Source: a virus
IMG/VR virus record: IMGVR_UViG_3300046542_000449
Location: 1-33,115 of that record
DNA length: 33,115 nucleotides
Reading direction: 5' to 3' (one strand)
The notes below the pieces were generated by a model that saw nothing but the letters and a program-made list of their open reading frames with translations, was not told where the DNA came from and did no database searches. This document shows, piece after piece, positions 11,486 to 32,138 of the stretch. Positions within the stretch are counted from its first letter, which is position 1. Every line of letters begins with the position of its first letter. Made by a program: the position numbers and the translations under genes.

Positions 11486-11487
11486 GT

Positions 11488-11540
11488 GAAACTGCCTGCA
11501 TTCGTTGAGCCGCAAAGTGCGGCGGAATGCAGGCAGTTTC
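11488..11540 (-). promoter_or_regulatory. Long perfect hairpin covering the capsid-gene ribosome-binding region
   Basis: A perfect 16-bp inverted repeat (arms 11488-11503 and 11525-11540) surrounds a second 5-bp stem GCCGC/GCGGC with a 5-base loop. In the leftward mRNA the 3' arm, GAATGCAGGCAGTTTC, ends 2 bases before the ATG at 11485 and contains the only purine-rich ribosome-binding sequence. No U-run follows, so it is not a standard terminator. It could hold back translation of the protease-capsid gene, be an RNase III site, or stabilise the downstream mRNA. Confidence 0.75.
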
Positions 11541-11551
11541 TCGATTTCGCT

Positions 11552-11578
11552 GTCTAGTTTTTAGGGAAGAAACTAGAC
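11552..11578 (-). promoter_or_regulatory. Second hairpin just after the portal stop codon
   Basis: A perfect 9-bp inverted repeat, GTCTAGTTT/AAACTAGAC, with a 9-base loop starts at the portal stop codon and lies 11 bases before the larger hairpin. Together the two structures fill most of the 92-base gap between portal and capsid genes. A degenerate version of the same arms is present near 13386-13412, at the end of the Mor-family gene. Confidence 0.65.
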
Positions 11579-13370: not shown

Positions 13371-13769
13371 CTATTCGGTCGGCTGTCTAGTTTCATGGGT
13401 AGAAATTGGACTTTTTGCACTACTGATTCCGATTCGCGCACTCCCTGGCTTGGGCTTGAGGATCTGATACAGCCGCGCGCGGCTGATGCCATGCTTCTTC
13501 ATCACGTCCTTGCTGTTGGTGCCATCGAACTCTTGGCGGATCTGCGCGTCGCGCTCCACCTTGCTCGGCGCCGGAATGTAGAGGCCGCGATGGCCCAGGC
13601 GCACGCCGCCATATCGCTTGCGCAGGCCCTGCACCAGCACACGCGCTATTTCGTAGGCTTCACGCTCATGCATGCCCAGTTCCCGGCGAGCGATTTCCAC
13701 GATGTCGTATTCCAGTTGTAGTACAGCGTCCTCGGCCTGGGCGGGGGTCACTGCGGTGTTGATATTCAT
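13371..13769 (-). CDS. Mor-family transcription activator
   Basis: A 132-residue protein with the Mor/C family layout of phage Mu: an N-terminal helical dimer part (EDAVLQLEYDIVEIARRELG), the strand-forming GGVRLGHRGLYIPAPSK linker, and a C-terminal helix-turn-helix (IRQEFDGTNSKDVMKKHGISRARLYQIL). In Mu these proteins activate middle or late promoters. Here the gene is placed between large terminase and gpW; its ATG overlaps the terminase stop (ATGA). An upstream in-frame ATG at 13784 exists, but GGAG favours the chosen start. It probably raises late transcription, but no target promoter was identified. Confidence 0.85.
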   Translation of the reverse strand: MNINTAVTPAQAEDAVLQLEYDIVEIARRELGMHEREAYEIARVLVQGLRKRYGGVRLGHRGLYIPAPSKVERDAQIRQEFDGTNSKDVMKKHGISRARLYQILKPKPGSARIGISSAKSPISTHETRQPTE

Positions 13770-16404: not shown

Positions 16405-16556
16405 TTAACCCCCTTAGGAGTGGTGCGCAACAGTCCGACAACGCCGCTCGAATTACCCGCGCTGACGGAAGCCAGGGAGGACCCACGATTTCCGGCGGGC
16501 AGATCGCGACGGCGGTAGCCGACCTCGACGCGCCCCGGTTGACTCGATCCATTCAT
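16401..16556 (-). CDS. Small hypothetical protein upstream of terminase (51 aa)
   Basis: A short gene wedged between two others by overlapping codons: its ATG overlaps the upstream stop (ATGA at 16556-16553) and its TGA overlaps the GTG start of small terminase (GTGA). A good GGGAGG lies about 10 bases before the start. The product begins MNGSSQPGRVEVGYRRRDLP and ends LLRTTPKGVK; it is rich in Gly, Ser and Arg with no clear domain. In lambda-like phages a small basic gpW/FI-like or connector peptide may be encoded in such places, but I do not recognise this one. Confidence 0.75.
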   Translation of the reverse strand: MNGSSQPGRVEVGYRRRDLPAGNRGSSLASVSAGNSSGVVGLLRTTPKGVK

Positions 16557-18893: not shown

Positions 18894-19418
18894 TCAACCC
18901 TCCCCGCGCCGCGGCATGCGGCTACGTGCTGTTGCGACAAGATGGCCTATGGCGGCCGTGGCCTCTTGGGCTTGGTAAGAGATGCGGCGAAGCTCATTGC
19001 CGCTGATATCGCCGCCATGCATCAGCGCATCCGCAGCGGCGCGGCAAAGCTCAGCAAACTCCGACTGCATGCGCATGAACGCCTCCACCGGATGCCCCCC
19101 GGTCTGATCAGGTGTCGCGCGGTCGCAAACAAAGCCCAGCTGCGCCGCCATCGCGTGAAGGATGGATGCGTTGTTTGCCACCACCTGGAGAGTCAGAGAC
19201 TCCTTGAGCGTGAGGTGGTGCGTGGTGTTGTTCGGGTTGAGCTTGTTCTGCAACGTGCCCGCGTTGATGCCCATGCGCTGGGCGAGATTGGCGACACCAC
19301 CAGGGTGGGCCTGGCTGATCTGGAACGCGGCATCCACCGGGTCCAGGCCGTCAATGTTGAGTTGAGCCCCACCTTCAACATATCCCGGCAGCCCTGATAT
19401 CGACACACTGATGGACAT
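18894..19418 (-). CDS. Phage regulatory protein, CII (CP76) family
   Basis: A 174-residue protein with the signature of the phage regulatory CII/CP76 family: PVDAAFQISQAHPGGVANLAQRMGINAGTLQNKLNPNNTTHHLTLKE followed by ASILHAMAAQLGFVCD. The first half is a helix-turn-helix-like DNA-binding region; the C-terminal half is a helical oligomerisation part. In related phages it takes part in the lysis/lysogeny decision or early gene control. TGAGGT precedes the ATG. It heads the leftward replication and packaging series. A start 28 bases from a divergent plus-strand gene leaves little room for a promoter, so its transcript may begin farther upstream. Confidence 0.88.
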   Translation of the reverse strand: MSISVSISGLPGYVEGGAQLNIDGLDPVDAAFQISQAHPGGVANLAQRMGINAGTLQNKLNPNNTTHHLTLKESLTLQVVANNASILHAMAAQLGFVCDRATPDQTGGHPVEAFMRMQSEFAELCRAAADALMHGGDISGNELRRISYQAQEATAAIGHLVATARSRMPRRGEG

Positions 19419-29914: not shown

Positions 29915-30262
29915 ATGAACATGCAAGTCACCGACTCTGAAATTCTCTATCCCGACGACCTTGCGGCGCTATTGGGCTGCGACAAGGGAACGGCCCAGCA
30001 GCGCATCATCTCCGGCGACCTCCCGGGCACAAAGTTTGGCCGCGACTGGGTAATCCCACGCCAAGCCTTCATTGAGCGCCTGAATGAGAAAGCGCGGGAG
30101 GAAGCCGCTGCACGGCGCGCGGCCCTGGCAACAAAGCGCGATCAGGCCCTCACACCCAGCCCCTCGCCAATGCTACCGACCAGCCAACCGCTGGCTCGCA
30201 CAGCAAGTCGCCGGCGTCAGCCGCCACCACTTCCCAACCTGCCCGCAACGGCGTCATGCTAG
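29915..30262 (+). CDS. Excisionase-like HTH protein (115 aa)
   Basis: The first 60 residues (EILYPDDLAALLGCDKGTAQQRIISGDLPGTKFGRDWVIPRQAF) are a MerR-type winged helix of the excisionase/AlpA class, where GTKFGRDWVIPRQ forms the wing. The remaining tail is basic and Pro/Ser-rich. The gene faces the integrase gene, and their stop codons are the two readings of a single CTAG. It probably directs integrase toward excision. ATG 29915 was taken; ATG 29921 is also possible. No strong ribosome-binding site. Confidence 0.7.
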   Translation: MNMQVTDSEILYPDDLAALLGCDKGTAQQRIISGDLPGTKFGRDWVIPRQAFIERLNEKAREEAAARRAALATKRDQALTPSPSPMLPTSQPLARTASRRRQPPPLPNLPATASC

Positions 30263-31467
30263 CCGTACATGCGCGCCGCCAGATCCTCAGCGCGGAAACT
30301 GGCGTAGCGCTGCGGCATCTTGCTACCCGGCGCCCATCCCATAATTGCCGGGATCTCGATTTCTCGAAACATCCAATCACCCGACTTAGGGTGACGCATC
30401 TCATACCAGCGGCAGGTAGCTTCATGCCGCAAATCATGCTCCGACAAATTGTCGCAGCCAGCATAGGCAAATACAGTCCTGAATCGATTGGACAGCTTAT
30501 GCGAAACCCTATCCATCTCATCCGGCTCACCGTTCCAGAACGGAAAAATCAACTGCTCAGCATCCCCGGCCGGCAGCCACTCGAGATACTTGCGCAGTAT
30601 TCCGAGTAGCTCGGGACGCACAGGCACGTCGCGCCATTTCACATGGCCATGCCATTGCTTACTGGTGCGCACCTTGAGCTTCACCGCATCCAGCATCACC
30701 TGGCCGCGCGTAAGCGTATAGGCCTCACGCAAGCGCAATCCAGTCCAGACTATCAAGCCAAACAGCACCGACAACGGGTACATGTCGGGCGCTGCCAGTG
30801 ACCGCTCACGGTCTGGTCGTTTTTCCCCACTCATCGCACGCTCAATCTTCTGCTGCTCGCCGGGAAATAGGCGGCGCTCCCTGCTCACGTCAACTCGCAC
30901 AGTTAAGCCCTGATCGCCCGGCTTGGCGGCTGCATTTGCCATGGCGATTTCTTCACGATCCTTGCCGTTGTACGATGCCATGCCGCGGGGCAGCAACTTG
31001 AGCGGGTTGCCGAAATTGACATCTTGGCTCTGCCGCAGCCACCAGTCAAAGCACCGCGATAGTGAGCCAATGCGCTTGCGGATGGTGCTGGGTGCATAGT
31101 TCTTGCTGGCATCGAGCTTCATGCTCTTGACCCAAGCCTCTGCCCATTTGTACGTGACATCGGCAATAAGCACCTGACCCAGCTCCAGATGCAGCAACCT
31201 TAGGATTTCCATATCGCTTTTCGCGGGCTGACCAGTATTCATCCAGGCGGCAATGATGAAACGCAGTCTCTCCGTAGGCTTTGGCTGATCGTTTGTCTTA
31301 ACCAGCCCCCCGGGTATCACACCCGCAGCCAGGAGCTTGTCGACCTGCTCGCCATAGGTTTCCGCCGCTTCCCTCGTATCAAAGGTCAGATAGACGGCCT
31401 TCGGCAACAGCCTGTTTCTGATCGTCAGCTCGAAGCGCCCCGGCCTCGTCTCGCGCACACTCGCCAT
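30259..31467 (-). CDS. int: Tyrosine-family phage integrase
   Basis: A 402-residue site-specific recombinase. The N-terminal arm-binding part (SVRETRPGRFELTIRNR) is followed by a core-binding helical domain (AEAWVKSMKLDASKNYAPSTIRKRI) and the catalytic domain with Arg in WTGLRLREAYTL, Lys in LKVRTSKQW, HDLRHEA (His-x-x-Arg), Trp instead of His in MGWAPGSK, and the nucleophile Tyr in QRYASF. The ATG at 31467 has GGGG upstream. It sits beside tRNA-Cys, reading away from it, the normal position of an integrase beside its attachment site. Confidence 0.93.
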   Translation of the reverse strand: MASVRETRPGRFELTIRNRLLPKAVYLTFDTREAAETYGEQVDKLLAAGVIPGGLVKTNDQPKPTERLRFIIAAWMNTGQPAKSDMEILRLLHLELGQVLIADVTYKWAEAWVKSMKLDASKNYAPSTIRKRIGSLSRCFDWWLRQSQDVNFGNPLKLLPRGMASYNGKDREEIAMANAAAKPGDQGLTVRVDVSRERRLFPGEQQKIERAMSGEKRPDRERSLAAPDMYPLSVLFGLIVWTGLRLREAYTLTRGQVMLDAVKLKVRTSKQWHGHVKWRDVPVRPELLGILRKYLEWLPAGDAEQLIFPFWNGEPDEMDRVSHKLSNRFRTVFAYAGCDNLSEHDLRHEATCRWYEMRHPKSGDWMFREIEIPAIMGWAPGSKMPQRYASFRAEDLAARMYG

Positions 31468-31482
31468 ACAAACCCCAATGAC

Positions 31483-31511
31483 TGTATAAAACAACAGCAC
31501 TTAAGTGTACT
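31483..31511 (-). promoter_or_regulatory. Possible integrase promoter
   Basis: On the minus strand AGTACA (31506-31511) and TATACA (31483-31488) are 17 bases apart; the -10 box ends 15 bases before the integrase ATG, leaving room for a short leader with the GGGG site. The -35 matches consensus at 3 of 6 positions only. Confidence 0.4.
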
Positions 31512-31658: not shown

Positions 31659-31732
31659 TGGAGGCGCGAACCAGAGTCGAACTGGTCTAACCGGATTTGC
31701 AATCCGGGGCATAACCGCTTTGCTATCGCGCC
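31659..31732 (-). tRNA. tRNA-Cys (GCA)
   Basis: A 74-base cloverleaf with acceptor GGCGCGA/TCGCGCC, anticodon stem CCGGA/TCCGG around GCA, T-loop GTTCGACTC and encoded CCA end. Its 3' end faces the prophage and is the most probable attachment target. Confidence 0.95.
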
Positions 31733-31745
31733 AGAACTCACACTT

Positions 31746-31774
31746 AGAAAAATGGGAAGCATGTGCTTCCCATT
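31746..31774 (-). terminator. Hairpin with U-run between tRNA-Gly and tRNA-Cys
   Basis: The 10-bp stem AATGGGAAGC/GCTTCCCATT with a 4-base loop is followed on the minus strand by TTTCT. It may terminate part of the tRNA-Gly transcription, or be a processing structure, since tRNA-Cys lies beyond it. Confidence 0.6.
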
Positions 31775-31780
31775 CTAATT

Positions 31781-31856
31781 TGGAGCGGGAAAACGGGTTC
31801 GAACCGTCGACCTATACCTTGGCAAGGTATCGCTCTACCAACTGAGCTATTCCCGC
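31781..31856 (-). tRNA. tRNA-Gly (GCC), copy nearest the prophage
   Basis: A 76-base cloverleaf with acceptor GCGGGAA/TTCCCGC, D-arm AGCTCAGTTGGTAGAGC, anticodon GCC, T-loop GGTTCGAACC and encoded CCA. Its sequence is identical to the other two copies. Confidence 0.96.
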
Positions 31857-31921
31857 AAACTCCTGAGAAACTTTCATCTCTCCGGAATTTCGCCAGCCAC
31901 CGAAGCGACCGACTGAAAAAC

Positions 31922-31997
31922 TGGAGCGGGAAAACGGGTTCGAACCGTCGACCTATACCTTGGCAAGGTATCGCTCTACCAACTGAGCTATTCCCGC
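31922..31997 (-). tRNA. tRNA-Gly (GCC), middle copy
   Basis: Identical in sequence to its neighbours. Spacers between copies (65 bases each) are similar to each other, with shared words such as ACTTTCATCTCTC, so the unit including spacer was duplicated. Confidence 0.96.
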
Positions 31998-32062
31998 AAA
32001 CTTCTCAAAAAACTTTCATCTCTCGAGATTTGCGCCAGCCGCTGACGCGACTGACTAAAACC

Positions 32063-32138
32063 TGGAGCGGGAAAACGGGTTCGAACCGTCGACCTATACC
32101 TTGGCAAGGTATCGCTCTACCAACTGAGCTATTCCCGC
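32063..32138 (-). tRNA. tRNA-Gly (GCC), first copy of the array
   Basis: First transcribed of the three identical genes. Upstream, minus-strand -10-like boxes TAGAAT (32158-32163) and TACAAT (32191-32196) are present but have no good -35, so the promoter is not fixed; co-transcription with lon is also possible. Confidence 0.96.

Follow-up and report, generated by a model that had tools for sequence, protein, structure and literature searches.

The cI gene of phage lambda, when transcribed from PRM, is expressed from a leaderless phage mRNA. In the T4 genes e, soc, and I-TevI, the ribosome-binding site (RBS) is hidden in the longer early RNA and freed in the late RNA: the 5' strand of the stem harbors the late promoter and is missing from the late RNA (PMC3014915, PMC2988022). 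In phage Mu, the dyad of the Mor promoter is 16 bp long and centered at -43.5 (PMC4390567, PMC4287176), and in Pm an AT-rich proximal UP subsite precedes the dyad (PMC4390567). The control of the capsid gene described here seems to combine Mu-type activation with a logic of the T4 gene e type in a family of lambda-like prophages.

The window, i.e., the whole stretch of 33,115 nt analyzed, is a lambda-like prophage carrying, according to its Pfam domains, a GpA-type terminase, a lambda-type portal, and a Clp-protease/capsid fusion, and its late genes are on the minus strand (Table 1). The ATG of the capsid gene (11485-11483) opens an N-terminus common to the relatives. The element preceding this gene is very probably a late promoter, P2, which would be activated by a Mor-like protein and is embedded in a predicted RBS-hiding hairpin, an arrangement that would tie the translation of the capsid to initiation at its own promoter.

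Table 1. Coordinates of the features of the late region and the evidence on which they are based
Feature	Position	Strand	Basis
Protease-capsid fusion gene (Clp-type protease + phage capsid)	11485-9374	-	Pfam CLP_protease + Phage_capsid_4
16-bp stem-loop hiding the capsid ribosome site in read-through RNA (computed)	11540-11488	-	Fold, opening cost, arm-swap test
Predicted transcription start of P2, +/- 1-2 nt	11528	-	7 nt after T(-7)
-10 element of P2, GAAACT	11540-11535	-	A/T at fixed positions in 67/67 non-redundant copies
P2 dyad GTCTAGTTT-N9-AAACTAGAC, predicted Mor-like activator site	11578-11552	-	Inverted repeat, covariation with recognition helix
A-tract before dyad (UP-like)	11585-11579	-	A at -5, -3, -1
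Portal gene	13113-11578	-	Pfam Phage_portal_2, E 5e-91
gpW-like head-tail adaptor gene, first gene after P1	13340-13122	-	PHROG head-tail adaptor
-10 element of P1, TAGCTT	13373-13368	-	Fixed spacing from P1 dyad
P1 dyad GTCCAATTT-N9-AAACTAGAC, second predicted activator site, inside 3' end of Mor-like gene	13411-13385	-	Repeat search, relatives
Mor/C-family activator gene, recognition helix SRARLYQI	13769-13371	-	Pfam Mor, Foldseek

The preliminary description of this locus reported two hairpins in the gap before the capsid gene. Both inverted repeats are present. The perfect 16-bp stem (11488-11503 with 11525-11540), topped by a GCCGC/GCGGC stem, ends 2 bases short of the ATG; it is the sole perfect repeat with arms of at least 13 bases in the window and by far the longest there, whereas no perfect repeat arm above 12 occurred in simulated sequences of the same dinucleotide content (n = 6). 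Folding of the 151-nt RNA around the hairpins gave a z of -5.1, none of the 200 shuffles being equally stable, and the 3' arm does contain the ribosome-binding sequence, a weak GCAGG (-3.1 kcal/mol with the anti-SD). The 9-bp repeat just upstream (11552-11560 with 11570-11578) has a second copy at 13385-13411 and recurs in many relatives; its length alone is not rare, since about five perfect 9-bp repeats are expected per simulated window. Of the two, the 16-bp repeat alone is best interpreted as a hairpin in the RNA.

The relatives fetched consisted of 80 viral loci with related capsids and 14 bacterial loci with related portals, the latter mostly from Acidovorax, Delftia, Variovorax, and Comamonas. 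In many of them, the pattern GTCnnnTTT-N7-10-AAAnnnGAC is located before the capsid gene, and the same dyad occurs again about 1.8-2 kb further up, before gpW/portal. In the window, the P2 dyad begins with the last base of the portal stop codon, and the P1 dyad lies just before the gpW-like and portal genes. A further copy (P3) precedes the holin and endolysin genes in Comamonas, Variovorax, and other phages; a third dyad was sought in the window and not found, and the lysis-gene promoter, which in relatives follows the capsid promoter at a distance of about 17-18 kb, would fall outside it. In whole genomes the dyad is restricted to the prophage, with at most three identical copies, and a Comamonas genome shows no match in 5 Mb apart from its three identical copies. 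When 399 genomes of the order were scanned for the dyad, matches were few and several of them were due to chance; no DNA-level relatives of the element were found among cultured phages. The nnn bases are mostly the same within a genome and differ between genomes, a distribution indicative of a trans-acting protein. We rejected covariation within the 9-bp repeat as proof of an RNA hairpin, since the DNA half-sites of a dimer would covary likewise.

Both the sequence model and the fold place the Mor-like protein in the Mor/C family: it matches Pfam Mor with 33.1 bits (cut-off 24.9), all 20 of its aligned relatives match the family model, and in Foldseek its six best matches all belong to Mu C (9l0x) and Mor (1rr7, 9l0y), with a probability of 0.96-1.00 and E-values of only about 0.004-0.03. 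Among cultured phages, the window's own protein had no match, and those of the relatives matched only Mu and a few others weakly. The nnn bases of the dyad were compared with each of the 94 columns of the Mor-like protein alignment in 41 non-redundant genomes. The top columns for the dyad arm bases were A98, R99, and Q102, all of which lie in the predicted helix 97-104, with which the predicted helix-turn-helix ends. Base 4 was best matched by A98 (z 9.4), base 5 by Q102 and R99 (z 11.8 and 11.1), and base 6 by R99 and Q102 (z 10.3 and 9.2), compared with a z of about 2 for the median column. With overall protein similarity removed, the residue-base partial correlation was 0.60, a value that neither the 2000 permutations nor the 1000 random column triplets attained. 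GTCCGG pairs with an R[ST]R.YE helix, GTCTAG and GTCCAG mostly with R[AS]RLYQ (as in the window), GTCCCA with R[TS][QT].YR, and GTCTCA with RA[QTH].Y[RK]; a few genomes (L017, L243, and L261) break the pattern. This match between activator and site, which the comparison shows, is strong comparative evidence that the Mor-like protein would bind the dyad. The residue-base pairs (R..E with CGG, R..Q with AG and, at the fourth base, A with T and T with C) make the specificity of the activator directly testable.

Since its arm bases follow the recognition helix, the upstream 9-bp repeat, previously taken for a second RNA hairpin, is best interpreted as a target of the Mor-like activator at the DNA level. 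Both 9-bp copies are also followed by T-runs on the plus strand, a terminator-like pattern which would suit weak intrinsic terminators of antisense RNA; but they contain just three G-C pairs, the T-run corresponds to the promoter's conserved A-tract, and neither the agreement of the arms with the helix nor the fixed distance to the -10 fits this role, which we consider extremely unlikely.

Apart from its predicted role as an activator site, the P1 dyad is remarkable in position: the C-terminal tail of the Mor-like protein, AKSPISTHETRQ, translates the protein's own predicted binding site (13371-13416), and the TAG stop codon of the gene is at the same time the first half of the P1 -10. Many relatives have Mor-like proteins with comparable tails. 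In L006 and L010 (L103), the Mor-like gene is 3.4-5.7 kb away from the capsid promoter, and promoter and stem are kept. In four dyad-bearing records (L018, L019, L032, and L035), the Mor-like gene was not found in the stretch fetched; that of L018 (G408) carries two identical dyads, at 16411 and 22849, 6.4 kb apart, and its activator may be located elsewhere or be too diverged.

A(-11) and T(-7) are the bases of the -10 element that sigma-70 reads. Downstream of the dyad, position +13 is A and position +17 is T in all 67 non-redundant copies, corresponding to A(-11) and T(-7), so that the comparison shows a -10 conserved at a fixed distance, and upstream of the dyad A is found at -5 in 57, at -3 in 58, and at -1 in 52 of the 67. 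The P2 hexamer is a weak match to TATAAT. No -35 pattern was found at the promoter, and a search for an ordinary sigma-70 promoter at the site found none. The predicted start of P2 rests in addition on the depletion of G at that column and on the position of the leaderless ATGs, and the dyad center, 30 bp from T(-7), would lie at about -37. The locus has in common with Mu Mor/C and with Pm and Plys/PI/PP/Pmom a helix-turn-helix protein of the Mor/C family, a -10 hexamer, an upstream dyad with a central spacer in place of the -35, an AT-rich tract before the dyad and, as predicted here, several late promoters under one activator (PMC4390567, PMC4287176). However, the dyad is 27 bp long with 9-bp arms and is centered near the predicted -37, in contrast with the 5-bp arms and the more distant center of the shorter Mu dyad, and the promoter is therefore called a variant of the Mu type. 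Unlike Mu, moreover, the prophage is lambda-like and non-transposing, and the promoter overlaps either an RBS-hiding stem or a leaderless start. No description of Mor-type late promoters in non-Mu prophages was found in the open-access literature searched.

Both the -10 and the predicted P2 start are located within the 5' arm (11525-11540) of the 16-bp stem, and RNA beginning at +1 lacks most of this arm but still has the small GCCGC/GCGGC stem at the 5' end. Opening the RBS region (-16 to +2) is computed to cost 24.5 kcal/mol in the read-through RNA, the existence of which we infer, versus 5.8 in the RNA from +1; shuffling the dyad-to-+1 segment alone lowers the read-through cost to 6.9 (z 21). 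A z above 2 was obtained with 17 of the 27 leadered capsid promoters. In the arm-swap test, the median was 16.1 with a phage's own 5' segment versus 8.8 with segments from other phages, bearing in mind that phages with similar stems replace each other and that the evolution of the stem is not independent in all rows. The stem sequences vary among groups (ACTGCCTGC.., ACTGAGGGCC.., CGCCATCCTTC..), and the comparison shows arms which are complementary in spite of their differing sequences. About a third of the leadered relatives have no stem, and a minority group (L036, L044, L125, L132, L153, L164, and L171) has none of this kind before the capsid gene. In L018, L021, and L032, the 5' arm is located in or before the -10 and would therefore be wholly absent from the late RNA.

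The comparison across relatives supports the earlier proposal that the 16-bp hairpin controls capsid translation, but not the mechanisms then put forward, RNase III cleavage or opening by ribosomes finishing the portal gene, since the -10 lies in the 5' arm. A hairpin present on the main capsid mRNA and processed in one of these ways would be in keeping with the long, nearly perfect stem directly before the ATG and with the portal stop codon 92 bases upstream of it. The conserved promoter hexamer within the 5' arm and the location of this arm in L018, L021, and L032 nevertheless speak against it, and coupling to the portal is not conserved in L006, L007, and L010, where either the portal stop is far upstream of the dyad or portal and dyad are separated by unrelated sequence; we regard this explanation as unlikely. 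It is also quite unlikely, and slightly more so, that the arms serve the P2 RNA otherwise, by stabilizing its 5' end as a stem-loop or, as DNA, in open-complex formation, the hiding of the RBS being a by-product. The stem retained at the 5' end of the +1 RNA and the conservation of the promoter even where the stem is absent would agree with such a role, but the stem segment paired with the RBS mostly precedes the predicted start, and would be missing from the late RNA, and complementarity to the RBS is maintained with different sequences.

Control by a hairpin confined to read-through RNA, the preferred reading, resembles the T4 gene e type in that a stem hides the SD or start on the longer RNA, here by computation, and in that the DNA encoding the 5' strand contains the late promoter, this strand being absent from the late RNA, here given the predicted start (PMC3014915, PMC2988022). 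Since the promoter consists of a Mor-type dyad and GAAACT instead of the T4 late promoter TATAAATA with the gp55 sigma factor, the locus would work like the gene e system but is not a member of it. The gene concerned also differs from e, soc, and I-TevI in being the major capsid/protease gene, and the block is deduced here from computation.

Start codons, which in the promoter lists were picked by hand from the open frames, fall into two classes by their distance from T(-7): 6-10 nt (19 copies) and 22-58 nt (42 copies), with none in between. The ATG is at or next to the predicted +1 in 19 of the 61 classified promoters of relatives, as in lambda cI from PRM, except that the leaderless genes in the relatives are structural and lysis genes. 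The 6-10-nt group is predicted to be leaderless, since no room is left for a leader if the RNA starts about 7 nt past the -10; anti-SD pairing is also weaker in the sequence upstream of its start codons (Mann-Whitney p 0.0003). The window's own P1 and P2 both have leaders. Since an ATG without an SD should work mainly at the 5' end of an RNA, the leaderless relatives would reach the same end, a dependence on the start site. Relatives with the same gene order in which the repeat is absent, which the preliminary description had set against its own proposal, do occur; they are predicted to be leaderless or to have an exposed SD, and the promoter is kept. In L046, L065, and L074, a predicted leaderless nine-codon frame (ATGCAC...GCATGA) precedes the capsid gene, and its stop overlaps the capsid ATG as ATGA, suggesting that the translation of the capsid may be coupled to that of a leader peptide.

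In the mechanism we propose, the Mor-like gene would be expressed from upstream together with the terminase, as the gene order makes probable, and its product would turn on P1, P2 and, in relatives, P3. The protein, probably a dimer, would occupy the 27-bp dyad (11552-11578), which takes the place of the -35, and would bring the RNA polymerase of the host to the weak -10 (11535-11540), with the RNA beginning near 11528. Since this start is within the 5' arm of the 16-bp repeat, the late mRNA would have only the small hairpin and an open ribosome site, and the capsid would be translated. The gene order permits earlier, longer transcripts to run into the capsid gene; RNA arriving from the terminase, Mor-like, and portal genes would contain both arms, so that the 16-bp stem would fold, hide the capsid ribosome site, and make translation poor. 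The arm being absent from the P2 RNA and present in the read-through RNA, capsid translation in the cell would be tied to activator-driven initiation at P2. The capsid may be shielded even from the P1 RNA for reasons of timing before the activator accumulates, because of leaky transcription in the lysogen, or to allow separate dosing of the capsid.

That this family of lambda-like prophages has a Mor-like late regulon (head connector, capsid, and lysis), genes translated only if transcription starts right there (through an RBS-hiding hairpin or an ATG at +1), and an activator DNA code legible from three recognition-helix residues seems to us a fairly probable generalization. Mor-family proteins outside Mu-like phages would gain a function, a readable DNA code, and target promoters named from sequence alone, and the hairpin and the leaderless start are suggested to be interchangeable means by which phages make translation depend on the origin of transcription.

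A gene for a CII-like transcriptional activator (PHROG 101) is located upstream on the same strand (18894-19418), in a replication-type region with a primosomal protein. The only known RNA families found in the window are tRNAs: a tRNA-Cys and three tandem tRNA-Gly(gcc) with a spacing of 141 bp (31659-32138), which adjoin an integrase gene (30259-31500) and likely mark the integration end of the prophage.
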